DNA of 54,594 nucleotides from contig JASHRC010000152.1 in assembly GCA_030037525.1 (NCBI GenBank), positions 1-54,594 of the forward strand, written 5' to 3'. The notes beneath the pieces are model-generated. The model was not told the DNA's origin. It did no database searches and saw only the letters and a program-made list of their open reading frames with translations. Positions 14,120-34,477 of the stretch are shown here, in pieces; within the stretch, counting starts at the first letter, position 1, and each line of letters starts with the position of its first letter. The stretch is from Candidatus Acidiferrales bacterium (GTDB taxonomy: Bacteria > Acidobacteriota > Terriglobia > Acidiferrales > UBA7541). Position numbers and translations under genes: made by a program.

Positions 14120-15859
14120 TCAGAGGCTGCGTTTGAGGACCAATCGACGGGCGATGCTAAGAATCTCGCCGACATTGAAATTCACGAGGCGGGCGGGCCA
14201 GAACAGCTCGGCCTTGTCGCACACAGTGGATTCGCTGTATTTCACGATTTCGCCTTCCAAGCCGGCGGGCAGGGCCGGCTGATTTTCATTTGCCGCACTT
14301 TCCGCTGCAGCGAGACGCGCGCGAAGGTCGCGCGCCTCGCAAATGTGCTGCGCGACGGTCGCAGCGCGTTTTTTCGAGATGCGTCGGTAACGTAGCTTAA
14401 GGGAGTTGAGCTGCTCGGCGGCATCGTAGGTGGCGTCGACGAGCTGGGCGCGAGTCATCCATTTCGTTTCGTAGTTGAGCGTGCGCTCCCAGGTGGGCTG
14501 AGTGAGAAGCTGGCGATGCTCCTCAAGCGTGCGGGCGAACAGGCGATAGCCAAAGCGCTCGGGGTCTTCGAAAATGCGGCTGCCGGGATCGAGGAATGGC
14601 CCCATGGGTGAGAGGAAGCAGGACAAACGCCCATCGCTGATTTGGAACAGATGCTCGCAGTACGCGACGGTATCGAGCGCAGATTGATAGGTCTGGCCTG
14701 GAAGGCCAATCATGAAGAAGAGGTCCAGGCGTGAGCACCGCAGACGCAAAGCTTGCAGCAAAATCCGCTCGAGTTTTTCATTGTCATAAGAGGGCTCGCC
14801 TTCCTGCGCTTGGCGGAGCGCGTGGTCGTGGCTTTCCGGACTGATCTCCATGCTCCAGTGAGGCACGGCGGCGTCGATCTGGTGCAGGAATTCCTTCGGC
14901 GGCAGGTCAAAAAACTCGAATACGATTTCGTTGGAGAGATTCGCTTTGCGCACGTTCGCGAGAACCGATTCCGCGTAGGCAGTTCCCGCCTGCAATAAAT
15001 CGCCAACCAGAAAAATCGGCGCGCGGCTGACGCGAGACAGCGAGGCCATATTGGCCGCCAGGCTTTCGGGGCTGCGAAAAACGGGCCAATTGCGTTTCGT
15101 CAGCTGGCCGCAGGCGGTTTTGGAGCTGCCGCATGTGGCGCACTCGCAGGAGCAGCCTTTGACGGTGAAGACGGCGGTGATGGGATTGCCCCACCAGGCG
15201 TTGTAAGGCAAGACGCTGCGAAGATCGCGATGGCGCAGGACCATTTCGACCATGAGATCGGGCCGCAGGTCGGCGTAATCGAGCGCGGACGGTAAAAAGG
15301 TCATGGGATTGATTTGCGTCGCGCCATCCCGCTTCCAGGTCAGATTGGGAACTTTGGCGAGCGCTTCGCTGTTTTCGAGCGACTGAAGCAGCGCGTGAAG
15401 CGGAGGCTCGGTGCTGTCGCCGCGGAGAACGAAATCGACGTGCGGATAGCGGATCAGCTCCTCGTGAAAATACGTGGAGGAAAGTCCGCCCATGATGACG
15501 GGCACGCCGGGAAGATTCGCTTTCACGAGTTTGGCGATTTCCAGCGCGCCGTGCGCGTGTGGCAGCCAGTGGAGATCGATGCCCACGGCCCTGGGGCGCG
15601 GCAGAGACGCCAGAAAGCGGGGGACGGAGAAGCGGCGGTCGACAATCATTCTGAAAGCGAGATTTACGATGCGCACTCTCATGCCGCGCTGCTGGAGGTA
15701 GCTGGCGATGGTGAGAAATCCGAGCGGGTACATCTCGAAAACGGTGGAGGACGGGATTAGGTCGCTAACGGGACCGTAGAAAATGGATTTTTCGCGAAAG
15801 TCGTAAACGCTGGGAGGATGCAGGAGCAGCAGATCCAGTCGTTTTGATTTTTGGGTCAT
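14120..15859 (-). CDS. B12-binding-domain radical SAM protein
   Basis: A 579-residue protein. The N-terminal third is a cobalamin-binding-like Rossmann domain (LLLLHPPSVYD, then GIDLHWLPHA and VIMGGLSSTYF), though no classical DxHxxG is clear. The radical SAM cluster motif is CSCECATC (Cys-x3-Cys-x2-Cys) near residue 235 within VKGCSCECATCGSS. Further core features include MEISPESHD and DLFFMIGLPGQT. The C-terminal 150 residues are helical and charged. Proteins of this group methylate or rearrange lipids, cofactors or antibiotics; the substrate here cannot be named. It is the last minus-strand gene of the respiratory block, 250 bases after a cytochrome b gene, with no gene seen between. Whether it belongs to that block is unclear. 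Confidence 0.85.
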   Translation of the reverse strand: MTQKSKRLDLLLLHPPSVYDFREKSIFYGPVSDLIPSSTVFEMYPLGFLTIASYLQQRGMRVRIVNLAFRMIVDRRFSVPRFLASLPRPRAVGIDLHWLPHAHGALEIAKLVKANLPGVPVIMGGLSSTYFHEELIRYPHVDFVLRGDSTEPPLHALLQSLENSEALAKVPNLTWKRDGATQINPMTFLPSALDYADLRPDLMVEMVLRHRDLRSVLPYNAWWGNPITAVFTVKGCSCECATCGSSKTACGQLTKRNWPVFRSPESLAANMASLSRVSRAPIFLVGDLLQAGTAYAESVLANVRKANLSNEIVFEFFDLPPKEFLHQIDAAVPHWSMEISPESHDHALRQAQEGEPSYDNEKLERILLQALRLRCSRLDLFFMIGLPGQTYQSALDTVAYCEHLFQISDGRLSCFLSPMGPFLDPGSRIFEDPERFGYRLFARTLEEHRQLLTQPTWERTLNYETKWMTRAQLVDATYDAAEQLNSLKLRYRRISKKRAATVAQHICEARDLRARLAAAESAANENQPALPAGLEGEIVKYSESTVCDKAELFWPARLVNFNVGEILSIARRLVLKRSL

Positions 15860-16111: not shown

Positions 16112-16993
16112 TCACCTGCCACGGAAAAACGTGACGAGCGTCAGAACCAGCAAGACGAACCCGCTCAGGACGACGACCACCCCAACAGTGCGGCCGAAGT
16201 TTTTCAACCAGAGCTGCGGCGAGCTGGCGAGCACCGACTGCAACTGACCGGTTTCGACCAGGCGCTGATACTCCTCGGGATGCTTTTCCTTCAGCTCTTC
16301 TTCCGTCATGCGGCCGGTGAAAATGACCAAGTCCATCGGGAAACTGCCGGGGCGCAGATGCGTGTTAAAGAAGTGGATGGCGAAGATGAACCAAACGGCG
16401 AGGAGAGCTTCTTCGCCGTGGATCAGAAGCGCGATATTGAGCCAGGAGCCAGGTACAAACCGGGCGAAGAACGGCGCGAACCACATCGCGTAGCCGGAAA
16501 TTCCGATGATGCCCATGCCCCAGAAGACAGCCCAATAGTCGAATTTTTCCCAATAAGCGAAGCGGTCAAATTTGGGGCGCGGGCCGAGCCAAACGAACCA
16601 GCGGAAATGACCGTAGAGATCCTGAAGATCCTTGAGGCGCGGGACCATCGAGTTTGGTCCCCAGAAGATGCCTCGCTGGCCCTGGAAGATGCCGCGATAG
16701 CCCATGTCGCCCAAGTGAATCAAAAATGCCACAGTCAGAATCACGGCGCAGAATTTGTGCCAAAAGAGGATGGCGGTGAAGCCGCCAACCCCGAGTGCGA
16801 CGGCGTGAGCCCAGCCGGAATGGCTGAAGCGGAGAACCATGCCGGTGAAGGCCAGGCCCATGAAAGTGGCCATGATGACGCCGTGGAGATAACGCTGGCC
16901 GAGCGTAAAGCGGCTGTAATAGGTCGGCTCAGCCGCAACCGCGGTGCCTTCCACTCGCCGCCGCGCGCGATCACTGGTACCGTTCGGACTCAT
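16112..16993 (-). CDS. Membrane cytochrome b (formate dehydrogenase gamma / b561 type)
   Basis: A 293-residue protein with about five membrane helices and several histidines placed for two b-type hemes (YLHGVIM, FWHKF, FLIHLGD, IHGEEALL, AIHFFNTH). The arrangement matches the cytochrome b subunits of formate dehydrogenases and thiosulfate or tetrathionate reductases, which pass electrons between a periplasmic partner and the quinone pool. Its ATG has GGAGAG upstream. No molybdoenzyme gene is nearby; the neighbours are 11-heme and 6-heme cytochromes 30 and 1,250 bases upstream, so it likely exchanges electrons with those. Confidence 0.85.
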   Translation of the reverse strand: MSPNGTSDRARRRVEGTAVAAEPTYYSRFTLGQRYLHGVIMATFMGLAFTGMVLRFSHSGWAHAVALGVGGFTAILFWHKFCAVILTVAFLIHLGDMGYRGIFQGQRGIFWGPNSMVPRLKDLQDLYGHFRWFVWLGPRPKFDRFAYWEKFDYWAVFWGMGIIGISGYAMWFAPFFARFVPGSWLNIALLIHGEEALLAVWFIFAIHFFNTHLRPGSFPMDLVIFTGRMTEEELKEKHPEEYQRLVETGQLQSVLASSPQLWLKNFGRTVGVVVVLSGFVLLVLTLVTFFRGR

Positions 16994-17025
16994 GACTCTC
17001 TCCTAAAACGTCCATGTCCTGAAAC

Positions 17026-18195
17026 TTATGCGCCGCCGGACGGCCCGCCGCCCTCACGACGGTCGAAGGCGGAGCGAATAAACCACAAAATCGTGTGCAG
17101 TCCGAAAAATCCGAACACGCCGAGCAGCAGAAGATTCATGAAAATTGCGGCGAAGTGCAACGCCGGAAACGACTGGGCGTCCATCGGATCGGCATGCGGA
17201 TGGAAGGTAACGAAACTAGCGTTGGCGCCCTGGTGGCACTGGCCGCACGTAGCGATCAGATTGGCAGGCGCGACTGAGGAATGCGGGTCAGAAGCCAGCA
17301 AGATGTCGTGGTGGCGGTGACAGTTCCAGCAATGCGCGGTTTCCACGTAGCTGAGCGCAGAGATCTGCGCGTGGAACGTATCCAGATAGGTGGCGTAGTT
17401 TTGCTTATGGCAGCTGCCGCAGGTGGAGGAGGTTTGCTCCTGCCAGGAAGCCGTTTCGACGCGAGCGATCTGGTGCGCGGTGTGGCAATTGCTGCAGACG
17501 GGCGCGTCGGTATCGCCAGCCTTCAGCAGTTGCCCATGAATGCCTGCGAAGTATGAGGCTTTCGGACCGGCATGGCATGTGCCGCAGGTATCGGGGATAT
17601 TTGCGCGATAGGTCCTGCTATCCGCATTGGTGTGGCTCAAGATTCTGTGCGTGCCATGGCAACTGGTACAGGAGGCGGCGACGAGCAGGCCGTCTTTGGT
17701 GAGCGCGAGACCGTGGATCGAGTCCATATACATGGAGTAAACATTTGGCAAGCCAAACTTGCGCGCCATTTGGGGATTGGCATGGCACGATCCGCAGGTC
17801 CTCGGGATATTCAGTGCGTACACTGGAGATTGCGGATCTTTCACCGGAACGATCGCGTGCGGATCTCCGTGGCAGGCCGTGCATACATTTGCCGCTGCTT
17901 GGGCATGGATGCTCGCGGACACGTCTTTGGCTTCGTCGGAGTGGCAAACAGAGCAATTAACGGTGGCAACGCGTGTGGGATGCGGATAGCCCTTAATATC
18001 CGTGTGACAACCAGTGCAGGGCAGGCTGCCATGCACGCTGGTCTTCTGCCTCTGAGCATCGATCGAGACGCTGTGGCCGGCCGTGTCTGTAAGCCCTTGC
18101 TGACCGTGACAGACCAAACAGTCGGAGTTTCGCTGTGCGCAAACTGAAGGAACGGCGAAAGCGAAGAACAACAACGTTGCTGGGGTCCAACGCAT
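17026..18195 (-). CDS. Undecaheme c-type cytochrome, membrane anchored
   Basis: A 389-residue secreted cytochrome with eleven CxxCH sites (CLVCH, CTGCH, CSVCH, CTACH, CGSCH, CTSCH, CGTCH, CSNCH, CGSCH, CWNCH, CGQCH). I chose the ATG at 18195, which has GGAGGG before it and opens a signal peptide ending at VCAQ; a longer frame would run into the neighbouring gene. A C-terminal helix (FMNLLLLGVFGFFGL) would hold the heme domain on the outer face of the inner membrane. With the cytochrome b gene 32 bases downstream it probably forms a quinone-linked electron transfer module. Known families: multiheme cytochromes resembling c3/c554 modules; I cannot assign a named member. Confidence 0.92.
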   Translation of the reverse strand: MRWTPATLLFFAFAVPSVCAQRNSDCLVCHGQQGLTDTAGHSVSIDAQRQKTSVHGSLPCTGCHTDIKGYPHPTRVATVNCSVCHSDEAKDVSASIHAQAAANVCTACHGDPHAIVPVKDPQSPVYALNIPRTCGSCHANPQMARKFGLPNVYSMYMDSIHGLALTKDGLLVAASCTSCHGTHRILSHTNADSRTYRANIPDTCGTCHAGPKASYFAGIHGQLLKAGDTDAPVCSNCHTAHQIARVETASWQEQTSSTCGSCHKQNYATYLDTFHAQISALSYVETAHCWNCHRHHDILLASDPHSSVAPANLIATCGQCHQGANASFVTFHPHADPMDAQSFPALHFAAIFMNLLLLGVFGFFGLHTILWFIRSAFDRREGGGPSGGA

Positions 18196-18247
18196 TGGCC
18201 CTCCCGTCGGAGCGGCGCAGCTAGAGTGTAAATTTCCGAATCCCGCC

Positions 18248-19702
18248 TTACTGTATGCCCAAGTCCGAGAGAACCTTGGGATTGTGTTCGTCCATGGCCA
18301 GAATATGATGGCAGCTGTCGCAGTCGTTGGGAATCGTCTTGCCGTCCTTGGAAACGTGGCTGCCATCATGACAGCGGAAGCAGCCCGGCCAGTCCATGTG
18401 TCCGAGGTCGTTGATGTACGTGCCCCAGGTGACATTCATGTCCGGGAAAACGTTGCGAGAGTAGATCGCCTGGACCTCCCCAATCGCGGTGTCCAGTTGT
18501 GAGCGCTGGGATGAGACGACGTTCGGATAACTGGCGGCGTAGAAATTTTGGAGCGCTTCCGCGATGCGCCGCCGCGCCGTCTGGCCGTCCGGATAATTCA
18601 CTTCGAGAGCAGCGAGCGCCTGTTTTTTGAAGAACGGCAAATTGGTGCTGACCAGGCCGCGGAACATGGCTTGGTCGAGCGCCTGGCTGGGGAGCTGGAA
18701 CGTGTGGGTCGGACGATTGTGGCAATCCATGCAGTCCATCAAACGGTGTTCGCCGGCAGCGAGTTGTGCGGGCGTCGCTTTGATGTCGGTCGATATGTAC
18801 ACGGTCGTTTTGCCGGAGGGATCGGTGCGGGTGACCTCCGGAATTACCTGGCGCTTTGCGTCCGTCGCGGTGTAGGTGATCTCTACTCCCGGACTCACAT
18901 GGTGCCCGTGAATCCCCTCCGTCTGGTTGCCCGTCGGCCCACCGACTTTCATCATCAGCACGGTCGTGGAGGAAGTGTTGTCCTGGTCGGGGGCGTAGTG
19001 GTCGATCACCACGATGGGATTGCCCAGGAACCGCTGTGGCCAGTGGCACTGCTCGCAAGTCGCGCGTGCCGGACGCAGACTTTCGACTGGCGAAGGGATC
19101 GGTTCCGGGTAGTCGTGGAACAGAACGGCGAAAACCTGCTTCACGCCGGAGACTTTGGAGCGGACGAACCACGAGGCGCCCGGGCCAATGTGACACTGCA
19201 CACACTCGACGCGGGAATGCGGCGAACCGAGATAGGCGGTGTACTCGGGCTGCATCACCGTGTGGCAAGTGTTTCCGCAGAAACGCACCGAGTCGGTGTA
19301 TTGCGCACCGCGGTAGGATGCGACCGTGAAGATCACGATGTTGATGAGCGTGAGGTATCCGACCAGAGCCGTCGCCCTACGATAGCCGGGATCATTGAAA
19401 TCGAGTTCAGGGTATTTTTTCGGAAGTTCACCGCGAGCCCAGAGGCGGTGATGCCTCCACCCAGCGCCGATCGGTATAAGGAGCAGACCGATCACGAAAA
19501 CGGCGGGGAGTGCCAGGAACAGGATAATTCCGGCATACGGATAGGTTAGGGCGCCGCCGCCCACCACGATTTCGAACACCCAGAAGGCAATCATGCTGAT
19601 TGCCGAGGTGGTGGTGAGGACGGCTCCTAGAAGCGTCACCCAGTTTTGACTTAGAAATGCGGCGGACCGGACCCAAGGGACAACGCGGCTCGATAGGGAC
19701 AA
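18248..19702 (-). CDS. NapC/NirT-like hexaheme cytochrome c
   Basis: A 484-residue protein with two N-terminal membrane helices (WVTLLGAVLTTTSAISMI and ILFLALPAVFVIGLLLI) and a third near residue 115, followed by six c-heme sites. The first is CGNTCH, with three rather than two residues between the cysteines; the others are CVQCH, CEQCH, CMDCH, CFRCH and CDSCH. The region CGNTCHTVMQPEYTAY and SPHSRVECVQCHIGPGA matches the quinol-oxidising NapC/NirT/NrfH family, with a Met after the first heme as likely axial ligand. The start is TTG at 19702 with GGAGG nine bases upstream. It would take electrons from, or return them to, the quinone pool and hand them to periplasmic cytochromes. Confidence 0.88.
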   Translation of the reverse strand: MSLSSRVVPWVRSAAFLSQNWVTLLGAVLTTTSAISMIAFWVFEIVVGGGALTYPYAGIILFLALPAVFVIGLLLIPIGAGWRHHRLWARGELPKKYPELDFNDPGYRRATALVGYLTLINIVIFTVASYRGAQYTDSVRFCGNTCHTVMQPEYTAYLGSPHSRVECVQCHIGPGASWFVRSKVSGVKQVFAVLFHDYPEPIPSPVESLRPARATCEQCHWPQRFLGNPIVVIDHYAPDQDNTSSTTVLMMKVGGPTGNQTEGIHGHHVSPGVEITYTATDAKRQVIPEVTRTDPSGKTTVYISTDIKATPAQLAAGEHRLMDCMDCHNRPTHTFQLPSQALDQAMFRGLVSTNLPFFKKQALAALEVNYPDGQTARRRIAEALQNFYAASYPNVVSSQRSQLDTAIGEVQAIYSRNVFPDMNVTWGTYINDLGHMDWPGCFRCHDGSHVSKDGKTIPNDCDSCHHILAMDEHNPKVLSDLGIQ

Positions 19703-19845
19703 TCCTTATTTCCTCCGGTTCATTTCCATCCGCGACGCTCGAAAGAGTTGCCTGATCCATTCGGTGTGTCAAGGGAAAAGGAGTCCTGGCCACGCGGAAG
19801 CTGCACACGGGGAGCCACGCCCCCCACAAGCCTGGCGTGGCCAAA

Positions 19846-20181
19846 CTACTTCTTGCCGAGCTCGCGGATATAGCCCACGAGATCTTTGACCTGCTCGGCG
19901 GAAAGCTTGTCTTTGTACCCAGGCATAGCTCCTTTGCCATCGGCGATGATGCCGGTCAATTCCTGATCCGATTCCTTCTGCACCTCCGGCGAAGCGAGCG
20001 AACGAAGATGCATGCTTTTTCCGACGGCCGTATCGCCCTTGCCGTCCGCACCGTGGCAGCTAGCACAGCGAGATTTGTAGAGGCTGGCCCCGGTTTGTCC
20101 GAAAACTGGCGCGGCAAAAAGTACTGAGCCTACAGCGATCTTGAGGGCCCTGCCAGAGAACTGAGTCATGAGAGTTTTCAT
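19846..20181 (-). CDS. Monoheme class I cytochrome c, copy 1
   Basis: A 111-residue secreted cytochrome: signal peptide, one heme site CASCHG, and the axial methionine in GAMPGYKDKL. The ATG at 20181 has GGGAGG before it. It is a tandem paralogue of the gene at 20439-20774; both are 111 residues and about 60% identical by hand alignment (48 of 79 mature positions). It is probably a soluble periplasmic carrier between membrane cytochromes and the outer-membrane conduit. Confidence 0.92.
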   Translation of the reverse strand: MKTLMTQFSGRALKIAVGSVLFAAPVFGQTGASLYKSRCASCHGADGKGDTAVGKSMHLRSLASPEVQKESDQELTGIIADGKGAMPGYKDKLSAEQVKDLVGYIRELGKK

Positions 20182-20438
20182 ACCGTTCCTCCCGGTAGAT
20201 GTACATGCGGGTCGGTCATGAAGTCTACTCCAAGGGATGCATAAGGCTGGCAGGAAAAAACAGGGCGGTGACGTTGGGAAGCGCCCGCCATCGCCCCAGT
20301 AGACGACAAAGAAGACCGCCGACAGGTCGTGAGATCGGCCAGCGTAATTGGAACTCCCGTGGGCCCGAACATTCCCGCTCGCTTCGGGCCGCGCCATTGG
20401 CGAGGGACCCGAATCGGCTCGGTCCATTCGTCGAGCCA

Positions 20439-20774
20439 CTACTTCTTGGCGAGCGTGCGAATGTACGCCACCATCCCTTTGATCTGGTCCGCGGTGAGCT
20501 TGTCTTTGTAGGCGGGCATGGCTCCCTTTCCGCTGGTAATCATCGCAGTCAGTTCAGCATCACTCTGCTTCTGGACGTCCGCCGATGTCAGGTCGCGGAT
20601 ATGCAAGGACTTTCCCACTGATGTATTGCCGGTAGCGTCGGCGCCATGGCAGGCGGCGCACTTGGCCTTAAAGGTCGCAGCCGCGTCGTCGGCTCTCAGT
20701 GGCGCCGAAAGCCACAGACCGAGCGCACTCGCTAGCACGAACGCACTCGCCTGTCGGGTTCTCCGCTCATTCAT
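20439..20774 (-). CDS. Monoheme class I cytochrome c, copy 2
   Basis: A 111-residue secreted cytochrome with heme site CAACHG and axial methionine in GAMPAYKDKL. The ATG at 20774 follows a strong GGAGG site. It lies directly downstream of the outer-membrane barrel gene and upstream of its near twin, separated by 257 bases with no gene seen. The duplication and position suggest a periplasmic shuttle for the conduit. Confidence 0.92.
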   Translation of the reverse strand: MNERRTRQASAFVLASALGLWLSAPLRADDAAATFKAKCAACHGADATGNTSVGKSLHIRDLTSADVQKQSDAELTAMITSGKGAMPAYKDKLTADQIKGMVAYIRTLAKK

Positions 20775-20812
20775 GGTGCCTCCTTGAACCACTGCGTTGT
20801 TTCCTACCCCCG

Positions 20813-20833
20813 GGGACCGGGGACCGGGGACTC
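20813..20833. repeat. Short GGGGACC tandem repeat
   Basis: Three GGGGACC-like units in tandem just upstream of the second monoheme cytochrome gene. This may be a slipped-strand repeat or part of an untranslated leader. No function can be claimed. Confidence 0.5.
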
Positions 20834-20892
20834 AAACCTGAATAACGTCAAAAGGCATATCGGAACGAGAAGGTGTAGTTGCTGCCCATACA

Positions 20893-23745
20893 TCAGAAGG
20901 CATAGACAACCGAGAAGGTCGCTACACTACCGTTGAAATCTGGCGCCCCGATCGGTTCAAGCGCGTAAGTCCCGCCGGCGATGGGAACACTGGTATTGGT
21001 CGGTGTTTTGGAGTTGTACCCGTAATAACTCCACTCCGTCTTGTAAGTCAGGCGCTTGTAAAGGTCGACTTGGATCAAAGCAAAAGGCTTCTGGTAATTG
21101 AATGCCAAGGTGCCGCCAGGTTCCAGCGGGTTCAAGGGTAGGACCCCGGGACCCACCACCGGATTGAGTACCCCCGTGCTGCCGGTAGCAAATGTCGCTG
21201 AATATCCGAGGCTCATTGTGACTCGCTTCACCGGTTTGAACATCACGTCGCTGTAGGCGTAATGCTGCTTGTCGGAATAGAGCTCTGTTCCACCCTGAAG
21301 GTTATCCGGCGTAGTATTGGCGAGGGCGCACGACCCCGCTCCCGCCGATGGGAACATTGGCAGCCCGATTCCAGTATTAAGGTTGACCATCGACCCGAAA
21401 CCGTCATTGAAGCAGACGTAGTTCTGCAAATAAAGATCGGTGTAGTTATATCCGAGAGTGAAGGTAAATTTGGAATCCGGCTTCGCCAGCACCATGGAAA
21501 TACTGTACGTCCGGCCGTGCTCGATGTCGTTGACTAGAATGATGTTATCGTTGTTCTGGTGAATATCGACCGCACCGTCGATGGTCGCCCATGTCCGTGG
21601 TCTGTAACTTACGTGGACCTTGTAGCTCTGGAAATGCCGCGGCCAGGTTCGCGTGTAGGAGTAATCGTTATATCCGTATTGGAAATCGCTATCGATTCGC
21701 AGCGTATCCATCGGCCGCAGCTCCAGGCCGAAGAGACCTACCTGCTCGTTGGTCGTGAATATCTGGCGAGACACAGTAAGAGCCGAACTTATGGTAGCAG
21801 CACTAGCGGCCCATGTAACTGAGCCGTCCGCATTTTGGGTGCACGTACCACCAGCAGCGGGGTTAAAGATGGTCGTACCCTTGGTGTATGGGCAATTCCC
21901 GCGGGCGGCCCAAAAGTCATTTGCCGCCGTGCCGCCGACCCCGCCGGGATAATAGATGTCATCCAGCGTTTGACTGGCAAAGGATTGGCCGATTCGGTCA
22001 TCCTCATACATATAACCGATTCGAGCGGTGATGCGGTTTGTCAAATCGGCTTCGAGTTGGAGGGTGTTCGATAGCCGTTTTTGTCCCAGGAAGTTCTCCG
22101 TCAAGGTGGTTGCAGCGTCAGCAGCCGCGGTCGAGGTTGCACTGACGCTACCGGAGGCAGCGTAGCTCTGGTGCTGCGGGCAGGTCGGCGAAAGGTAGCT
22201 GGGTGCCGCCGCCGTGCCGGTGTTCGGGCAGATACTGGCAAATGTCGGCACGGTCACCCCGCTGGCAACCCCCGGGAGCTGAAACAGTGCTATTGGCAGC
22301 AGTATGCCAGTCTGGCCAACCACCGAGGGTTGCGTGGCGAATAGGTCGGTCGTCGTCTGGGGATTGGCTCCGGGATTTTGCCATTGGTCATAGTGAACGG
22401 AATCGAGAAGCCGAAGTTTTTGGGTGAACGAGTAAATGCCAGACCAATTCGCGTGCACAAAGATTTCGTTGGCGTGTGCCGGACCTGAAACGATGGAGTC
22501 GCGAACCTCACTTGTCGTGGAGGCCGTCCATTCGTTTATGGAATCGTAGAGGTTCACGGCTCTATTGGCGGCGTTGCTGTAGCTGGCCGAAGCCGACATC
22601 TCAAGCTTTGGGATATATGTGGACTGAAAGCTCAGCCGCTCCGTGGGCATGAAATTCCGCGTGGGGGAAGTCCTCGTATACGACTCGACCATCTTGCAAC
22701 CCACGTTTGCCGCTGTGAGACCGCCCGCGGCGACTGCGTTGCTCCCGGTTGCGATGTTTACGAAACCTGTGGGCTGGAACGGCGTGGCGCAAGGGACGGT
22801 CGCGGCGGTAAAGGCACCAGGAGCGCCCGTACTAGTTAGAGTCGTGCCAGCCGCGGTGCCGTTAGGGGCATACAACCAGTTGACTCCCATATTCACGGGC
22901 AGTGTGCCCGGGAACTGACTTGTTTGGACCAGAAATGGCGTGTTGGCAAGCGAGTCGCTGGTATCGTACCTGTTCCATTCAAGGAACTGATCATAGGAGA
23001 TTGTGGTCTTTGGCAGGACTTTGAAATCCACGCCCGTACGAAACGCGTTCGTGTTCTCTTCGAAATGCTGTGCCATCGGGATCTCGACGGTGGCATCTTC
23101 GGTAGTGAGCGCAGGTCCCTCCTCCCTATGGCCCGAATATCCGAGCCGGAAGCGTACGCGGGATTGCGGCAGCAGCGTCAAATCGTAATCCCCCATGCGA
23201 TGCGCGAGATCGAGTGAATGCGGCGAATTCGTAGAGGCGAACGAGGGATTGGTGATCGCGAACGCGGCAAGCTGCGCTGCAGTGAGGCCCGCCGGGGGGA
23301 TCGGCACCGGGTTGAATGGATTCGCCAGCAGGTTGTAATCCCAGAAATACTTGTCGCGGCGGAACAGCGCCGAAAACTCATACCACTTATCCTTTTCGAT
23401 CCGCAGGCGCGAGACGTCGTTGGGATCGCCGCCATAGCCGAAGCTACTGAAATTGAGATTGTCGAAGAAGAGCCCTTGATGGTTGAGGGACCTCATGTCC
23501 AGGGTGTAGTCGAGCAAACGCGGACCGGAACGTAGATCGACGAACGTGTCATACGTATTCTGGTTTCCAGTGATCCAGTTCACGCGACCGCCAAACTCAA
23601 CCGTTTGCTGCACGTTATAGTTGCCATAGTCGACTCCCTTGGTTTCCTCGGAGTTGTCCTGGGCGAAGGAAGCAGGGGAGAAGAAGAGAAACACTGCCAC
23701 CACGGACAGCAAACTTAGCGGTTTGATGCCTGTACGCGGGCTCAT
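20893..23745 (-). CDS. MtrB/PioB-like outer-membrane beta-barrel of an electron conduit
   Basis: A 950-residue secreted protein. The ATG at 23745 gives a clean signal peptide ending PASFAQ, with GGAG upstream. The remainder is a long series of amphipathic strands with Tyr/Trp/Phe at alternate positions (for example KWYEFSALFRRDKYFWDYN, WSYYGYNSKT) and ends in Phe (SVVYAF), as barrel proteins do for insertion by BAM. Large size, position 102 bases downstream of a decaheme cytochrome of DmsE/MtrA type, and the strand style match the MtrB/PioB family, which forms a sleeve around the decaheme protein. I do not see the N-terminal Cys-x2-Cys of Shewanella MtrB. A Geobacter-type porin of a porin-cytochrome complex is the alternative. 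Confidence 0.78.
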   Translation of the reverse strand: MSPRTGIKPLSLLSVVAVFLFFSPASFAQDNSEETKGVDYGNYNVQQTVEFGGRVNWITGNQNTYDTFVDLRSGPRLLDYTLDMRSLNHQGLFFDNLNFSSFGYGGDPNDVSRLRIEKDKWYEFSALFRRDKYFWDYNLLANPFNPVPIPPAGLTAAQLAAFAITNPSFASTNSPHSLDLAHRMGDYDLTLLPQSRVRFRLGYSGHREEGPALTTEDATVEIPMAQHFEENTNAFRTGVDFKVLPKTTISYDQFLEWNRYDTSDSLANTPFLVQTSQFPGTLPVNMGVNWLYAPNGTAAGTTLTSTGAPGAFTAATVPCATPFQPTGFVNIATGSNAVAAGGLTAANVGCKMVESYTRTSPTRNFMPTERLSFQSTYIPKLEMSASASYSNAANRAVNLYDSINEWTASTTSEVRDSIVSGPAHANEIFVHANWSGIYSFTQKLRLLDSVHYDQWQNPGANPQTTTDLFATQPSVVGQTGILLPIALFQLPGVASGVTVPTFASICPNTGTAAAPSYLSPTCPQHQSYAASGSVSATSTAAADAATTLTENFLGQKRLSNTLQLEADLTNRITARIGYMYEDDRIGQSFASQTLDDIYYPGGVGGTAANDFWAARGNCPYTKGTTIFNPAAGGTCTQNADGSVTWAASAATISSALTVSRQIFTTNEQVGLFGLELRPMDTLRIDSDFQYGYNDYSYTRTWPRHFQSYKVHVSYRPRTWATIDGAVDIHQNNDNIILVNDIEHGRTYSISMVLAKPDSKFTFTLGYNYTDLYLQNYVCFNDGFGSMVNLNTGIGLPMFPSAGAGSCALANTTPDNLQGGTELYSDKQHYAYSDVMFKPVKRVTMSLGYSATFATGSTGVLNPVVGPGVLPLNPLEPGGTLAFNYQKPFALIQVDLYKRLTYKTEWSYYGYNSKTPTNTSVPIAGGTYALEPIGAPDFNGSVATFSVVYAF

Positions 23746-23846
23746 GATTTTGTACTCCAACGTGTAAAAGTTGCGATTTCCGCCACTCGGTTCCATGACT
23801 TGACTTGCTGCGCCTCCCGCATCGCCAAATATTCGTCCCGTTTAAC

Positions 23847-24845
23847 CTATCGGAAATATATGTCGCTAAAGTTGGATCCGTGAATTTGCGTGTGGCACAT
23901 TGTGCATGCCTGTATGTAGATAGCGTTGTTCGGAACCGGACCATTCATCACCGCAAAACCAGTTGGCTGGCCGTTGTTGCCGGCTGTCGTGATGGGTCCG
24001 AAGTGGGCTGCAGTGTGGCATTGCAGGCAGAGCAGGTTGACCTGGCTGTACCTCAACATGTGAACATTTGCCCCACCGTGTGGGATATGGCAGGTCGCGC
24101 ATCCTTGCAACTTCACAGAACAGTGTGGGAACACGAAGGGCCCCTGTTTGTCCTTGTGGCACTTGAAACAGACGGTATCGCCGTTATCTGAAGTTCGGAC
24201 TTGCCGCACCAAATGGTCTGACTCCCAAACTCCAGCCGTTCCGTGCTGGTTGTGGCAGTCGCTGCACTTGATGAGGCCTTCATTCACACGATGGTGAAAT
24301 GGCATATTAAATTGAGATTTCTGCTGCTGATGGCAGCCGTAGCAAAGTGCTGGCTCCCCCTTGACCAGTAAATTTTCTTTCGTTGTCGCGTGGTGCGGCG
24401 AGTGGCAATCGATGCAGCTCACCTGGTTCTGCCGGTGGAACGAATTCGCGCTATTGAGGTGAGTTTGCCCGGAAGCATGGCAGGTGAGGCAGCGCGCATT
24501 GATTTCTTCCGGTGAATGTTCCGCGAAGACAAAAATCTTGGTCTTGTCACCGCCGCCGGCGACGTGAGCTGCCCCGGGACCATGGCACCCCTCGCATCCC
24601 TGATGGGACGGGCCACCCCTGGTATCGAGAGTCGTCTTCCAATGTGGAGTCTTCTCCCAGTTGTTATAGAGGTCTTCGTGACAGGTCTTGCAGACTTCAG
24701 CGCCCAGGTACTCGGCAGCTTGCGACGAGGCTGCCGGGGACTGGGAAGCGCCCGCCTGAGCACGAACGGGGCCACCGCTTAGCAGGAACAAAGCGATAAC
24801 GACTATTGGGAAGCGGCTGAGAGCGAACCGGTATAGTAGGCGCAT
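23847..24845 (-). CDS. DmsE/MtrA-like decaheme c-type cytochrome
   Basis: A 332-residue secreted cytochrome with ten CxxCH sites (CKTCH, CEGCH, CLTCH, CIDCH, CYGCH, CSDCH, CFKCH, CATCH, CLQCH, CTMCH). Length, count and even spacing fit the DmsE/MtrA/PioA family, whose members thread through an outer-membrane barrel and carry electrons across the outer membrane. I chose the ATG at 24845, with AGGGGG upstream at fair spacing; an in-frame GTG at 24857 is possible. The signal peptide ends near GGPVRAQ. The barrel gene follows directly. A CRP/FNR-type palindrome lies about 80 bases before the start. Confidence 0.92.
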   Translation of the reverse strand: MRLLYRFALSRFPIVVIALFLLSGGPVRAQAGASQSPAASSQAAEYLGAEVCKTCHEDLYNNWEKTPHWKTTLDTRGGPSHQGCEGCHGPGAAHVAGGGDKTKIFVFAEHSPEEINARCLTCHASGQTHLNSANSFHRQNQVSCIDCHSPHHATTKENLLVKGEPALCYGCHQQQKSQFNMPFHHRVNEGLIKCSDCHNQHGTAGVWESDHLVRQVRTSDNGDTVCFKCHKDKQGPFVFPHCSVKLQGCATCHIPHGGANVHMLRYSQVNLLCLQCHTAAHFGPITTAGNNGQPTGFAVMNGPVPNNAIYIQACTMCHTQIHGSNFSDIYFR

Positions 24846-24888
24846 CGTTCTGGACACCCCCTGCCCGCAACAAACACGAACTGGCCCG

Positions 24889-24894
24889 GATGCT
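24889..24894 (-). promoter_or_regulatory. Possible -10 element of the decaheme gene
   Basis: TAGCAT read on the minus strand. A start about seven bases on would put the palindrome at 24917-24932 centred near -42, the normal class II activator position. The hexamer itself is a weak match to TATAAT, so this is inference. Confidence 0.3.
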
Positions 24895-24916
24895 AGAGCG
24901 AAACATCTGGTTCGTC

Positions 24917-24932
24917 TGTGATACTTGTCACA
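24917..24932. promoter_or_regulatory. CRP/FNR-superfamily palindrome TGTGA-N6-TCACA
   Basis: TGTGATACTTGTCACA is a perfect TGTGA-N6-TCACA palindrome in the non-coding region before the decaheme cytochrome gene, with a run of nine T (A on the coding strand) next to it at 24944-24952. This is the consensus of CRP-type regulators and close to that of HcpR-type ones. Which regulator binds is unknown. Confidence 0.5.
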
Positions 24933-25107
24933 CGGGCGAAATCTTTTTTTTTAGCAACGCGCTGGTTTTGTCGGCCAATCGAACCGAGAGGATTTCCCGA
25001 CTTCGAGCATCAAACAGTCTTCTTGGGATCTGCTTTCGGCCGGCGCGGTTGGAAGCAATCAGACGTCCCGTCGGGAGCGAGCTTACGGGCGAGAATTCTA
25101 CGGCGAG

Positions 25108-25390
25108 CTATTTCTTCATGGTGCGAACGGAAGTGGTATTGTGAAGAACGCCTTTCTTGCTGGCGTTTTGCGCCGGCCTCATTTTGTTCTTGCCCTCGGC
25201 GATGACTTTGGAATGCCCAGAGTCGGAGAGTAACTGAACTTCTTTGCCGGAGAGCGGAGGAAAGGTGATGTTCTACAGCGGCGCGATCATAGGCTTGCCG
25301 TTTCCTTCGGCGGCCTGGCACGTGGCGCAATGCTGCAGGTAGGATTGCTTGCCATCTCCCTTTCGATTGAGCGGAGGCGGCGCGGTGGGG
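25108..25390 (-). pseudogene. Decayed monoheme cytochrome c
   Basis: Translating the minus strand between the decaheme and nonaheme genes gives one frame that reads GDGKQSYLQHCATCQAAEG, then GNGKPMIAPL, a TAG at 25273-25275, then in the same frame NITFPPLSGKEVQLL and, further on, EGKNKMRPA before a final stop at 25108. This matches a class I cytochrome c (heme site, small-residue Gly-rich turn, Met near the C-terminus) with two lesions: the heme histidine codon is now CAG (CATCQ) and there is one internal stop. No normal start or signal peptide remains. It explains most of the 25.0-25.4 kb gap. The rest of the gap (24.95-25.1 kb) shows nothing. Confidence 0.6.
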
Positions 25391-25443
25391 CAGTCACGAG
25401 CACCAATCGTAGTTTCCTTGGCGCACCTCCGGATTCGTGACTC

Positions 25444-26733
25444 CTACTGTTTCGATTCGACTTTGCGAATCATCAGTGCTATTCCGACCAACACCAATAG
25501 CGAAATGGCGAGCGAAATAACGAGCCCCTTACGTCGATACGAGGCTTCCGCAAGAGCGCTCTCACCGGCCTTGTAGGTTACGTCGGTGACTTTGAGGCCG
25601 GCGTTGATATCTTCATCCACGGACTCGAGTTCCACGGTGTGAATCGCGACGCGCGCCTTGGTGAGAGCGTCCTGCGCCTGATTGAGATCGAGTTGCGCCG
25701 GGCCGACTTCCACGCCAGCTTGGCCGGCCCTGTCCAAAATTTCTCGGGAACGAGCGATCGATGTATCCAGCTGGACCAGCCGTGCGTGAATCTTCGCTGC
25801 AGTTTCATAACCGGGGTCGCCGGCGGAATGGCACTGAAGGCAAACGGCGCCTTTGTCGGCGCCGATAAGCGCGTCGGTTGGATGCTGGATTCCGTGATTT
25901 GAGTGGCAGGTCACGCAGCCCGGAAGGTTCAGAGACTTGAAAACATCCTTATGCGGGCCGGAGTCAAACAACTGCGCCTGGAAGACGTGGCATGTGGAGC
26001 AGACGTTGACGACAGAAGCGACTCCGGGCGGCGCAGCGCCATGGCTGCCGTGGCATGTGGAGCACGTGGGCGCGCTCAGATCGCCTCTGTCGACCAATGC
26101 GGCGCGATGCACGCTGGTGCTGTAAAGCGCGAGCTGATTGGTGGGAATGTTATAGGGCTTCATGTACTCGGCATTGGCGTGGCATCGGCCGCAGGTCTCG
26201 GCCACGTTGGTCGGATAGACCCTCGCGCGCGAATCGTTGGGCGGGAGAATGTCGTGAACCCCGTGGCAATCCACGCAGACAGCGACTTGGTGATCCCCTT
26301 TCGCAAGCCTCTGACCATGAATGCTGGTGAGATACTGCGAATACTGGTCGGTTCGCAGCGAAGGATTGAAGCTTCGCATGTAGGCGGCGTCGGCGTGGCA
26401 TTTGGCGCAGAAGGTGGGAACCTGCTCCCGAGCCGGAAAATCCTTGAAGCCTTTCGCCGGGCTCATGGCGACGGACATGTCGTCGGACGTCGAATCACCA
26501 CCGTGGCAAGTGACGCAGCTAACGCCCTTTTGCGCATGAATGCTCTGCGCAAACGCAGCCAGATCGACCCGGAAGGGCGCATCGAGCTGGGAATGGCAAT
26601 CCAGGCAAGTATTTTTTGTCTGCGCGGAAAGCGACGAGGGGGAAGCGAGGAAGAGCGCGCCACAGAGCAAGAACGCAGGTGGGAATAGCCCGCGCGGCGC
26701 GCGTCCGTTCCTGCAAAATCCGCCCAAATTCAT
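25444..26733 (-). CDS. Nonaheme c-type cytochrome of a bc-type complex
   Basis: A 429-residue protein with a signal peptide (ending near SLSAQ), nine CxxCH sites (CLDCH, CVTCH, CAKCH, CVDCH, CGRCH, CSTCH, CSTCH, CVTCH, CLQCH), a helical region of about 90 residues and a C-terminal membrane helix ([17 protein letters not shown]). Its ATG overlaps the cytochrome b stop (ATGA), so it is translated with the Rieske/cytochrome b pair and takes the place that cytochrome c1 or f has in ordinary complexes. It should accept electrons from the Rieske centre and pass them on in the periplasm. Confidence 0.92.
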
Positions 26734-27815
26734 TTCCCCAGATACGCGTACACGGTCATGCCCACAAAGTAAGCCAGCGCGAAAATGCCCACTCCGGTAA
26801 ACCAGCGCGTGCTGCGCCCTCGCCTGTCGTTGTCAAAAAAAGGCAAGCACGTCCACACGACGGCGGCCACGCCGAACACCAGCACGCCGATGAAATCGCC
26901 GGCGAACGGCCCGACATTCGCGGGTAGGAAGCGCAGAGTCTGAAACATGAACATGAAATACCACTCTGGCCGGATACCGGCCGGGGCAGAGGCGAACAGA
27001 TCCGCCTTTTGTCCCAGCTCCCAGGGCTTGAACGCCGCCAAGCATCCCAGCACAGCCAGAGCGACGTACCAGGCCATCAGTTCGCGAAGGAAAAAGTTCG
27101 GGAAAAAACGGAGCTCGCGCGCTTTTTCGGGGTGAGCTTTCGTTTCATCTTCCACGCTGGGTGGAACGCTCATGCCGAAGCGCTGCACCAGCAGCAGATG
27201 CAAACCGATGAGCAGGGTTGCCAGGCCCGGCAAAACGGCGACGTGAATGCCGAAAAAGCGGGTGAGTGTGGCGCCGGTGACGTCCTCGCCTCCGCGCAAA
27301 AAGACCAGAATCCAGTGGCCGATGAGAGGGACCTGCGCGGTCATGTTCGTGCCGACTTTCGTAGCAAAAAGCGAAAGCATGTTCCATGGCAGCAGGTATC
27401 CGCTGAAACCAAAGCCCAGAACCAGAAACAGCAAGATCATGCCGCTCAGCCACGTGAGTTCGCGGGGCTTGCGATAGGACTTGAGAAAAAAGACGCTGAA
27501 CATGTGCGCGATGGCGGTCAGGATCATGACGTTTGCGCCCCAAGAATGAATCGAGCGAATCAGCCAGCCAAACGGCACGCGGGTCATGATGTACTGCACG
27601 CTTTCGAAGGCTCCATCCGGCACGGGCCGGTAGTACATCAACAAAAGAATTCCCGTAACCACTTGAATGCCGAACAAAAACAGAGTCATGCCACCGAGAA
27701 AATAAAAATAGGAAAACCGGTGAATGGGAACGGTTTTGTGACGCAGAAACGCCATCAGCTCGTCCCATCCAAAGCGCTGGTCGAGCCAGTTGCGAATGTT
27801 GCCAGGCGCGCTCAT
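26730..27815 (-). CDS. Cytochrome b subunit of a bc/b6f-type complex
   Basis: A 361-residue membrane protein with about eight helices, so the b6 and subunit-IV parts are in one chain. Heme histidines are in [11 protein letters not shown] and IAHMFSVF (helix B) and in GIHVAVLPG and LIGLHLLLV (helix D). The quinol-site PEWY motif is intact ([10 protein letters not shown]). It starts two bases before position 27815's upstream neighbour: the Rieske stop is at 27816-27818, so the genes abut. It oxidises quinol (or reduces quinone in reverse) together with the Rieske protein. Confidence 0.94.
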
Positions 27816-28313
27816 TTACGTGTTTTGCGGTCTTTGCACGTAGAGATCGTTCCCTTTCACAATCACGTCGAACGCCTCGAGGGGATGTGGCGGAGGGCCG
27901 CTGATGTTGGCACCGTCGATCGAATAAACGCCGTTGTGGCACGGGCACCAAACCTCATGCAGGTCAGGGCGATACTGAACCGTGCAGCCGAGATGCGTGC
28001 AAATGGCCGAAAGCGCGTGGTATTTGCCGTCGGCCGTGAGAATGAGGAGGGCGGGGCGACCTCCGAACGGAAAAATCTTCCCAGAGTTCGGTCGCAATTC
28101 GCCAATCTTGGCGGCCACCACCAAATCGGGGCCCAGCTCTGCTTGCGCTGGGGGAATAAGATATCGGATCACCGGGTACAGGTAGGAGATGAGGGAAGCG
28201 ACGATACTGCTCCCCAGAAGGAGTTCAAGAAAAGGCCTACGTGCCGGTTCTGCGGGCTCTCGTGAGCCCGAATTCTGCAAGCTTCGACTGTTTTCTTGAG
28301 AGTCGATGCGCAT
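27816..28313 (-). CDS. Rieske iron-sulfur protein
   Basis: A 165-residue protein with an N-terminal membrane anchor (LLLGSSIVASLISYLYPVI) and the two cluster-binding motifs CTHLGC and CPCHNG, which hold a 2Fe-2S cluster by two Cys and two His. The end of the domain has the Pro-rich loop (GPPPHPL). I chose the ATG at 28313; a GTG six bases earlier is possible. It begins the Rieske-cytochrome b-nonaheme operon. A frameshifted paralogue lies at 35474-35929. The 280 bases upstream, to the hpnR stop, hold no gene that I can see. Confidence 0.94.
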   Translation of the reverse strand: MRIDSQENSRSLQNSGSREPAEPARRPFLELLLGSSIVASLISYLYPVIRYLIPPAQAELGPDLVVAAKIGELRPNSGKIFPFGGRPALLILTADGKYHALSAICTHLGCTVQYRPDLHEVWCPCHNGVYSIDGANISGPPPHPLEAFDVIVKGNDLYVQRPQNT

Positions 28314-28592: not shown

Positions 28593-30080
28593 TCAGGCGG
28601 CGCCGGCGACCGTTTGTGGCTTGTGAATGAAGAGAAGCTTCTGATCGGTCACTCGGACCGGCGCCGCTGGAAGGGTCATCTGGTATTTCACATCGCGACG
28701 ATGATCGGCGATCTGCCTTTCGGGGTTATAGATCTTGGAGAACTTCCAGAGCATCTTCACAAAATTGGTCTGCCCGTGTGCCAGAAAGCCTGCCGCTAAA
28801 AAGAAGGTGTCTTTAAGCGCACTCAGTCCCAAGTGTTTCTGGTTCAATACCTGTTGGGTGCGGACGAGCTCCCGGTAAAAGCGATCCAGCGGCAGCGCCG
28901 TCGGCAGCACGGCGTGCTGGACATCAAACAGGCGGTAGTCGCGCGTCGTGAACCTGCGCGACTCGGTCATCCAGGTTTCCGTGCCCGGATAGGGAGTGTT
29001 GACGGTGATGTGCACGATTTCCGGTACGCTCATGGCCCAGTTGCGAACCGCCTCGAAGTGGCGCTCGTCCCAGCTGGGATCGGCGATGATGTTGACGGCA
29101 GCATGAATGCGCAGAGATCGCGCGCATTCCAGTGCCTCGATGTTTTTCTTGACACTGACCCGTTTCCGGTGACTCTTCAGCCCTTCATCATCGATCGCCT
29201 CGATGCCCAGGAACATGTACTTCAGGCCGAGGCGCTTCCAGTAGCGGAAGACCTCTTTGTTGCGCAGAAGAACGTCGCCGCGCGTTTCCAGGTAATACTG
29301 CTTTCGAATCGTGCGGCGTTCGACCTCTCTGGCAAGCGCCAGCCCATGCTCGGGCTGAACGAAGGCGACATCATCGACGATGAACACGCCTGGCTCCCGG
29401 ATGCTCGCGAGATCGTCGGCAGCGACTTTTGGATCGAGCTTGCGATAGTTGCGGCCGTAGAACGTCCAGGCGCTGCAAAACGCGCAATCCCAGGGGCAGC
29501 CTCGGGTGAACTCGATCGAGGCGCAAGGATCCAGAACGCCGATGAAGTACTTGCGGCGGCGTGCCGCGAGATCGCGCGCGGGGTGGATCGCATTTAAATC
29601 GCGAACCAGTTGCGGGGCGGGGCCCTCGCCATCGACTGTGGTGACTCCCGGCACGCTCTGCAAGCGTACCGGATCGGAGGCTGCCTCCAGCACCAGCGGC
29701 GTGACACCTTCGCCTTCTCCGCGTACGACGCAGCGAATGGCGCCCCGGGCGTGTGCGAGGATTTCTCGCGCCGTAAACGAAGCGCTATGGCCGCCAGCGA
29801 ACAGGAAGCACTCGGGCGCGCGCTCACGGGTTTGCTTGGCTAGGTCCACCACCTCGGGAATATTCGCCAAATAGTTGAGAGAAAAACCGATGGCGTGGGG
29901 CTTCCAGTACTCGACGGTGCGGAAGTAGTCTCGATGGCGGAAAATCTGAAGGTCCAGCAATTTTACTTCGTGTCCGGCTCTGCGCGCCGATTCCGCAACC
30001 AGTTCCAGCCCCAACGGCTCCAAACGCAGATAGATTTCCGAGTACATCAGGGGACTGGGATGTACGAACAGGACCCGCAC
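28593..30080 (-). CDS. hpnR: Hopanoid C-3 methylase
   Basis: A 495-residue B12-binding radical SAM protein. The N-terminal domain (MRVLFVHPSPLMYSEIY, then LRLEPLGLE) and the radical SAM cluster motif CPWDCAFC in EFTRGCPWDCAFCSAW, followed by FIVDDVAF and NTPYPGTETWMTESRR, match what I know of HpnR, which adds a methyl at C-3 of hopanoids using S-adenosylmethionine and cobalamin. The start is GTG at 30080 with GGAGG upstream. No other hopanoid gene is in the window. It lies just before the Rieske operon on the same strand, 280 bases away. The product would alter membrane hopanoids. Confidence 0.85.
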   Translation of the reverse strand: MRVLFVHPSPLMYSEIYLRLEPLGLELVAESARRAGHEVKLLDLQIFRHRDYFRTVEYWKPHAIGFSLNYLANIPEVVDLAKQTRERAPECFLFAGGHSASFTAREILAHARGAIRCVVRGEGEGVTPLVLEAASDPVRLQSVPGVTTVDGEGPAPQLVRDLNAIHPARDLAARRRKYFIGVLDPCASIEFTRGCPWDCAFCSAWTFYGRNYRKLDPKVAADDLASIREPGVFIVDDVAFVQPEHGLALAREVERRTIRKQYYLETRGDVLLRNKEVFRYWKRLGLKYMFLGIEAIDDEGLKSHRKRVSVKKNIEALECARSLRIHAAVNIIADPSWDERHFEAVRNWAMSVPEIVHITVNTPYPGTETWMTESRRFTTRDYRLFDVQHAVLPTALPLDRFYRELVRTQQVLNQKHLGLSALKDTFFLAAGFLAHGQTNFVKMLWKFSKIYNPERQIADHRRDVKYQMTLPAAPVRVTDQKLLFIHKPQTVAGAA

Positions 30081-34268: not shown

Positions 34269-34477
34269 ACGCGGCTTCAGCCGGTCAATGACTGTTGACT
34301 GAGCCGGTACTGTTCTCGATGTGGCAGACTTTGCCAGCCGCGCAGCGCCTTGCTTGCCAAGGTGCACACCTACTAACTGGATTTCAATCTATCTCGACCC
34401 ACAAAGGCAATCTGAACCCTTGGCAAATCATTGGGCGGCTCCGCTCAAATTCCACTTCCTTCCTTCGGCTGCATAGA

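Follow-up and report, generated by a model that had tools for sequence, protein, structure and literature searches.

A candidate electron conduit across the cell envelope of a Candidatus Acidiferrales bacterium and the inner modules encoded beside it

Introduction

What use might a bacterium make of ten adjacent genes that encode multiheme cytochromes, a Rieske protein, two cytochromes b, and a large outer-membrane barrel? The question is raised by a stretch of DNA 54,594 nucleotides long, hereafter referred to as the window, which is contig JASHRC010000152.1 (positions 1 to 54,594, forward strand) of assembly GCA_030037525.1 from a Candidatus Acidiferrales bacterium. The host is represented by a 4.2-Mb draft genome of 286 contigs that is 93% complete, the window being contig 240. 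The genes of interest form a block of ∼12 kb on the minus strand, extending from position 28313 to 16112. With a probability that we place at roughly two in three, the block encodes a modular trans-envelope electron conduit, most likely one that exports electrons from menaquinol to an external acceptor. The parts of the system, the predicted fold of its barrel, the adjacency of its genes, the reuse of its modules, and the exchange of its outer pair were all computed.

Gene arrangement

All ten genes share the same orientation. In order of transcription they encode a Rieske protein, a cytochrome b, a nonaheme cytochrome, a decaheme cytochrome, a 950-residue barrel, two monoheme cytochromes, a NapC-like hexaheme cytochrome (NapC6), an undecaheme cytochrome, and an FdnI-like cytochrome b. 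An earlier note on this DNA had proposed a one-strand arrangement of this kind, and indeed every gene that it named is present on the minus strand in the order that it gave. The c-heme motifs number nine in the nonaheme cytochrome, ten in the decaheme, one in each of the monohemes, and eleven in the undecaheme, with NapC6 contributing five CxxCH motifs and one CxxxCH motif. The sum is 38, exactly the figure that had been estimated. Outside of the block, CxxCH motifs in open reading frames of at least 60 residues are limited to a kinase (32355-34367), which has two, and three others with one each. Because such reading frames are scarce elsewhere in the window, the clustering of heme genes in the block is not a matter of chance.

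The intergenic gaps range from -4 to 257 bp, the exception being one of 586 bp that spans a decayed monoheme gene. A single transcript is not supported by the site scan, in which terminator-like sites were as frequent as expected by chance and promoter-like sites less frequent than that.

The outer pair

The decaheme cytochrome (positions 23847-24857; as with all features of the block, on the minus strand) is of the DmsE/MtrA type. It scores 241 bits against TIGR03508, for which the cut-off is 192, and is the sole match above that cut-off in its own genome. It also matches the MtrA chain of the Mtr complex structure 6r2q (chain A) with an E value of 4.3e-30.

The barrel is encoded at positions 20893-23745. 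When searched against Pfam and NCBIfam it gave no match at E 0.01, PF11854 (MtrB_PioB) included, and a search of its own genome with PF11854 gave none at E 0.1. The barrel profile has a single match among PDB sequences, at E 1.1. An AlphaFold model of the barrel, based on 62 sequences, has a predicted local distance difference test score (pLDDT) of 82, a predicted template modeling score (pTM) of 0.76, and 27 strands of nine or more residues. The top Foldseek match to this model among 350,542 PDB chains is MtrB (6r2q_B), with an E value of 1.5e-15, a template modeling (TM) score of 0.70 by target length and 0.49 by query length, and 10% identity. The next-best matches, the 49 others among the best 50 of 834, are TonB-type receptors with TM scores by target length of 0.44 or less. 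An ordinary TonB-type receptor was rejected since, among those best 50, the receptors score below MtrB. A plain member of the MtrB/PioB family was likewise rejected because there is neither a Pfam match nor a significant profile relation. The barrel represents a sequence family of its own and resembles MtrB in predicted fold alone. The fold implied by the earlier assignment to the MtrB/PioB type is thus retained in the model, whereas the sequence family is not.

Relatives of the barrel numbered 111 among 146 candidates, and 80 loci were retained (the named loci). In 79 of these the decaheme gene immediately precedes that of the barrel; the contig of the other, L084, starts at the barrel. The DmsE family match, the match to 6r2q, the predicted fold, and this adjacency all agree with the decaheme-barrel conduit that had been proposed. 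The barrel alignment (A1) contained 25 relatives from 32 rows of at least 700 residues, with five that lacked a clear start, as well as L040 and L054, omitted. Alignment A3 contained 61 of 68 listed rows, and alignment A4 12 of 13, L105 being left out.

Two further observations concern such pairs. At L131:5709, a 931-residue reading frame with eight heme motifs, possibly a surface cytochrome, lies just upstream of the decaheme-barrel pair. In G001, a genome of the same genus, two decaheme-barrel pairs are found inside 9 kb (L031:10051-18671), the second of which is ∼30% identical to the window pair. Spread by plasmid was considered and dropped, as one plasmid record matches the decaheme, with 31% identity over 64%.

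The inner modules

The first module comprises the Rieske protein, cytochrome b, and nonaheme cytochrome. The Rieske 2Fe-2S protein (27816-28313; PF00355, E 7.8e-12) is b6f-like with one N-terminal transmembrane-like segment, and its best NCBIfam models are those of b6f PetC, below cut-off. The cytochrome b (26730-27815), 361 residues in length with seven transmembrane-like segments, matches PF00033 (1.7e-51) and PF00032 (1.6e-10) and is the only PF00033 match in its own genome. It is b6-like with a subunit-IV-like end, and cytochrome b6 chains match at E 1e-53. A Rieske protein and a full-length cytochrome b, as in the bc1 and b6f complexes, are therefore present, and the bc-type complex that the earlier note placed inside the locus is borne out. 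The module has no cytochrome c1 or f as acceptor subunit; that position is occupied by the nonaheme cytochrome (25444-26733), which has a C-terminal transmembrane-like segment at residues 404-422. The nonaheme gene adjoins Rieske and cytochrome b homologues in eight of the nine named loci with a nonaheme match, and the ninth, L101, is cut by a contig edge. The possibility of a housekeeping complex III was dropped in view of five NrfD-family matches in the genome, one of them at a locus with an ActD match and another at a locus with Qrc-like parts below cut-off, though the PF00033 match is the sole one.

This same cytochrome b is matched by the NCBIfam model for ExtP at E 8e-63 and 211.9 bits, below the cut-off of 290. 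In the ext cluster of Geobacter a porin is paired with Rieske/b and multiheme proteins, and the porin affects selenite and tellurite reduction (PMC5877670). By likeness to ext or to DmsEF, the decaheme-barrel pair might serve the reductase of a soluble compound, either dimethyl sulfoxide-like or a metalloid oxyanion, and the decaheme does score above the cut-off of the DmsE model. We consider this very improbable, however, for a search of 30 window proteins against Pfam revealed neither a molybdopterin reductase nor any other catalytic subunit.

The second module is NapC6 (18248-19702), a candidate ImcH-like quinol oxidase with a NapC/NirT core (PF03264, 1.9e-9; NrfH 2j7a, E 2e-5). Its N-terminal part is long and hydrophobic (residues 22-76 and 110-128). 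A structural model, of low confidence at pLDDT 59 and pTM 0.35, places three long helices there and was dropped from the fold search on account of those scores. From hydropathy and this low-confidence model, the N-terminus is read as three transmembrane segments. According to PMC6295460, ImcH consists of an N-terminal part with three transmembrane segments, a CX3CH motif next to it, and five to nine CX2CH motifs. NapC6 has the CX3CH motif beside the hydrophobic part and five CX2CH motifs, and eight relatives of 507-512 residues have one extra C-terminal motif, for a total of seven, as in Geobacter ImcH. Likened through the published anatomy, NapC6 resembles ImcH more than it does the NapC/CymA proteins with one transmembrane segment. 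The description as a NapC/NirT-like hexaheme thus holds for the core and the six motifs, but not for the long hydrophobic N-terminus, which more resembles that of ImcH.

The third module is encoded by two genes, which look like the halves of a split CbcL-type protein. The undecaheme cytochrome c (17026-18195) would be the heme half, with a C-terminal transmembrane-like segment at residues 348-366, and the FdnI/HydC-like cytochrome b (16112-16993; PF01292, 5.5e-8) the membrane half. Models of formate dehydrogenase gamma subunits in NCBIfam match the latter below cut-off. The two are fused in seven named loci (L105, L106, L113, L127, L130, L141, and L152), the heme part being N-terminal with several transmembrane-like segments behind it, which is the build of CbcL, MtrH, and MtoC. 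In those proteins a CX2CH-rich domain and an FdnI/HydC-like domain with six transmembrane segments make up a single polypeptide, which is not found in the window, where both halves are present in separate genes. The note had listed an undecaheme with a membrane anchor and a cytochrome b; both genes exist, but they seem to be parts of one CbcL-type protein rather than separate items. Its further suggestion that NapC-type partners complete an MtoABCD system was not upheld, as the inner partners fit the ImcH and CbcL of Geobacter better. As a separate observation, L187:11158-14181 and L188:11271-14135 encode CbcL-type fusions that are 955-1008 residues long and have 19 heme motifs, beside a 13-heme copy of ∼717 residues.

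In function, the two monoheme cytochromes may stand between the inner modules and the outer pair. The first (mono1, 20439-20774) belongs to class I (PF13442, 4e-16), and the second (mono2, 19846-20181) is 53% identical to it. A monoheme homologue is present at 48 of the 80 named loci, the label mono1 in the locus surveys denoting either gene. The decayed gene (25180-25353), which lies between those for the nonaheme and decaheme, matches mono2 by tblastn at E 1.8e-7, has an internal stop, and has lost its heme histidine (CATCQ), so that the earlier description of a decayed cytochrome c was correct. In relatives L049, L050, L056, L117, L187, and L188, a reading frame with one CxxCH motif and monoheme similarity follows the nonaheme gene.

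Occurrence in relatives

Of the named barrel loci, 79 are labelled Acidobacteriota (Terriglobia, Acidiferrales, Acidobacteriales, Acidobacteriaceae, Ca. Angelobacter, Ca. Sulfotelmatobacter, Granulicella, and Acidipila). The remaining one, L123 (BOG_genome_mining.134, labelled Betaproteobacteria), is probably a mislabelled or mis-binned metagenome-assembled genome. In a set of 101 genomes, its own included, the barrel has a match at E ≤1e-5 in 67, many of the weak ones being short local matches; 40 are at E ≤1e-30.

A comparison of gene order, as the earlier note had suggested, shows that relatives have the block or much of it, and four loci (L112, L050, L187, and L188) are nearly complete. 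The Ca. Angelobacter locus L112 encodes, in near-window order, the Rieske protein, cytochrome b, nonaheme, decaheme, barrel, monohemes, undecaheme, cytochrome b, and NapC6, the last of these shortened and accompanied by a second NapC6 fragment. All modules are present at L050 with a divergent conduit, and L113 and L141 have the Rieske/b/nonaheme genes on the opposite strand together with NapC6 and a CbcL-type fusion.

NapC6 is present in 34 of the 101 genomes and the nonaheme in 26. A barrel of either type is found in 31 and 22 of these, respectively, and lies within 20 kb in 16 and 11. The cytochrome b half of the CbcL-type protein occurs in 31 of the 101. These counts bear on an alternative in which the three inner modules function as general respiratory enzymes of the periplasm and are neighbors of the conduit but nothing more, with no single supply chain. 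In its favor, the modules come and go, several genomes place them on contigs without a barrel, the 586-bp gap with its decayed gene interrupts the block, and a single transcript is unsupported. Such an arrangement seems quite unlikely to us, given that the barrel is as close as 20 kb in 16 of 34 NapC6 genomes and 11 of 26 nonaheme genomes despite fragmented assemblies, and that the same inner set is retained when the outer pair is replaced.

Other genes can follow the conduit. After the barrel and monoheme, at least four relatives have a protein with two transmembrane-like segments, three CxxCH motifs, and a CX4CH motif, which on the basis of those features is read as NapC/CymA-like. At eight named loci a more distant Rieske and cytochrome b pair follows the monoheme gene. 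Locus L123 carries an acidobacterial decaheme-barrel-monoheme set and a reading frame with three CxxCH motifs.

Exchange of the outer pair

In genomes G023 and G035 (L187 and L188), the genes encode a decaheme, a PF11854 barrel, a monoheme, the Rieske protein, cytochrome b, nonaheme, a monoheme, NapC6, and two CbcL-type fusions. This is the block of the window served by a different barrel. G020 has two PF11854 conduits next to the inner block, where its genus mate G032 has one of the window type (L189, L191).

Trees were built on chosen loci, a subset of those fetched (17, 18, 21, and 17 rows), and their grouping by barrel type was chosen after the data had been seen. The decaheme tree is split by barrel type once, with support of 100/100 (4 versus 14 rows). 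Each of the trees of cytochrome b (17 rows), the nonaheme (17), and NapC6 (21) requires that the barrel type changed two or more times. The approximately unbiased test (p-AU) rejects placement of the three PF11854-linked rows in a single clade for both NapC6 (2e-45) and the nonaheme (4e-5). These trees point to at least two exchanges of the outer pair.

The search for PF11854 covered 61 genomes, and 56 of them also belong to the 101-genome set. Of those 56, five have PF11854 over cut-off; the window-type barrel is present in none of the five versus 38 of the 51 others (p 0.002 in a Fisher test of exclusivity that was also chosen after the data had been seen). Given the splits in the trees and the mutual exclusivity of the barrel types, the decaheme and barrel appear to move together, with two kinds of barrel filling one shared slot.

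Other respiratory genes and neighboring genes

The bacterium's own genome has two complex-III-like loci (L214, G000:C26, and L216, G000:C208). One is an alternative-complex-III locus with an ActD match; the other, a second NrfD-type locus, has a 1097-residue reading frame with Qrc-like molybdopterin and Fe-S parts, below cut-off. There are three COX1-family oxidase genes, two of which adjoin genes for subunit II that score over the model cut-off. Since the alternative complex III locus and cytochrome c oxidases are present, O2 respiration does not have to depend on the Rieske/b module, and the block may well be separate from it.

Upstream of the block are two possible regulators (30997-34367, minus strand), identified by family matches and motifs. 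The histidine kinase (32355-34367, minus strand) has its two CxxCH motifs in the sensor part, where there is a weak match to the heme-sensor domain PF21563, below cut-off. The NtrC-type sigma-54 response regulator (30997-32358, minus strand) ends ∼2.7 kb upstream of the block. Homologues of the kinase and regulator are found at 7 and 15 of the 80 named loci, respectively, these being bare counts without a chance baseline. A sigma-54 promoter driving the block was rejected: sites resembling -24/-12 elements number 27 at two or fewer mismatches, and the chance mean is 27. Proteins with B12-binding domains are encoded on either side of the block on the same strand (28593-30080 and 14120-15859, both minus), the first with a radical-SAM match. 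They were dropped as members of the system, having no homologues at the 80 named loci within 10 kb per side.

Discussion

The way in which such a conduit could work may be outlined as follows. In the outer half, the DmsE/MtrA-type decaheme would be threaded through the MtrB-fold barrel, and one or two monoheme cytochromes would ferry electrons to it through the periplasm. The inner half would offer three alternative entries for the oxidation of quinol: the Rieske/b complex with its anchored nonaheme, the ImcH-like hexaheme, and the split CbcL-type pair. Depending on the redox potential of the acceptor, the module suited to it would oxidize menaquinol. The electrons would then travel through the monohemes and the barrel-enclosed decaheme to an acceptor outside the cell, for example Fe(III) or humic matter, in the manner of ImcH, CbcL, and CbcBA in Geobacter. 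The exchange of electrons with an extracellular substrate, its identity, the formation of complexes, the path, the quinone type, and the direction are what we infer from the parts and their arrangement. In Geobacter, the working range of ImcH lies above about -0.1 V, that of CbcL is at low potential, and that of CbcBA is near -0.2 V (PMC12307469). A like division of labor by potential among the three modules is an attractive idea, and one that may apply here by analogy.

Electrons could also flow in the opposite direction, from extracellular Fe(II) or another donor through the decaheme-barrel pair and the monohemes to the cytochrome c oxidases, and partly uphill to quinone, as in PioAB or MtoAB. 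The block has no MtrC-like partner, an absence said in PMC4245776 to mark Fe(II)-oxidizing clusters especially. Moreover, the monohemes adjoin the barrel in MtoABD-like fashion, oxidases are encoded in the genome, the distant Rieske and cytochrome b pair follows a monoheme gene at eight named loci, and CbcL/MtrH/MtoC homologues are also reported from Fe(II) oxidizers (PMC6295460). We nevertheless regard inward flow as unlikely. ImcH homologues are described in PMC6295460 solely from Fe(III) reducers. A search limited to RuBisCO, as opposed to other routes of carbon fixation, found none in the 93% complete genome, which weakens the case for Fe(II)-driven autotrophy.

Several findings weigh against the block as an outward conduit with its own supply modules. 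When a 26-sequence profile of the barrel was compared with PF11854 barrels, five in number and of the same bacterial family, the relation was not significant (probability 9.6%, E 0.0034). No MtrC-like surface decaheme is present in the block, and a scan of its own genome (93% complete) with PF22113 at E 0.01 gave five matches: two in the nonaheme and one each in the decaheme, the kinase, and a multiheme reading frame of a complex-III-like locus. MtrAB without MtrC is, according to PMC4245776, able to carry electrons across membranes. The Rieske/b/nonaheme set is found at 8 of the 80 named loci, NapC6 at 16, the undecaheme at 10, and all three at 3, these counts being lower bounds owing to contig ends. 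Barrels of either type are lacking in 4 of the 26 genomes with the nonaheme and 3 of the 34 with NapC6, PF11854 having been sought in 56 of the 101. The Rieske/b complex, with the sole PF00033 match of the genome, could have a general role. Finally, a long-branch warning attaches to the nonaheme tree and involves G020, and one of the G020 decahemes also forms a long branch.

The outward conduit that we favor has parallels in several known systems. Like MtrAB, PioAB, and MtoAB, it has a DmsE/MtrA-type decaheme adjoining a large barrel, the model of which fits MtrB of 6r2q best. It differs in that the barrel shows no PF11854 match or significant profile relation, in the lack of MtrC, and in its inner partners. 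The wire would work in MtrAB-like fashion, yet its barrel lies outside of the MtrB/PioB family by the feature tested. NapC6 is like Geobacter ImcH in its published anatomy, namely CX3CH and at least five CX2CH motifs behind an N-terminal part that is here read as transmembrane, and the third module is like CbcL in having a heme half and an FdnI-like b half, though split into two genes. Unlike the ImcH/CbcL/CbcBA set, the bc-type module of the window has a Rieske protein, and all of the modules adjoin the conduit. The 2018 survey by Zhong and Shi reports no mtrAB or mtoAB next to imcH (PMC6295460).

The extHIJKLMNOPQS cluster of Geobacter likewise combines an outer-membrane porin, multiheme cytochromes, a Rieske protein (ExtO), and a cytochrome b (ExtP) (PMC5877670). 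Its porin ExtI, however, is a 45-kDa protein with 12 segments predicted in PMC5877670 and 21 in PMC6148476, and ExtK/L is a pentaheme. ExtN and ExtM have 10 and 12 hemes; the window cytochromes, compared with them by NCBIfam scores alone, fall below cut-off. The MtrCAB of Acidobacteriia (Group 5 of Baker et al. 2022) comes from the same phylum and also has a decaheme and barrel, but it is described as having MtrC, with a tetraheme following mtrB and without a quinone oxidoreductase of the inner membrane nearby (PMC8805035). No description of the present barrel conduit combined with three inner modules was found in searches of open-licence papers. To that extent the earlier statement that no described system has exactly this layout holds; it gives way before the near-complete blocks in relatives and the partial precedent in ext.

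More tentatively, the system might be regarded as a widespread acidobacterial plug-in wire through the outer membrane, with a barrel family that PF11854 does not detect. One decaheme-barrel slot would be filled by either of two barrel families, which have no detectable sequence relation and their own decaheme clades. With a shared set of three quinol oxidases graded in potential, this would amount to a complete external respiratory chain adaptable to the potential of its acceptor.

Surveys that rely on the MtrB/PioB model would miss a conduit of the window type. Indeed, among the 38 genomes with the window-type barrel that the PF11854 search covered as well, none scores above its cut-off. Acidobacteriota are common in soils, and if the conduit works as outlined here, soil iron or humic respiration may be commoner than counted. 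The swapping of the outer pair while the inner set is kept provides, in addition, a natural experiment on which parts have to match one another.

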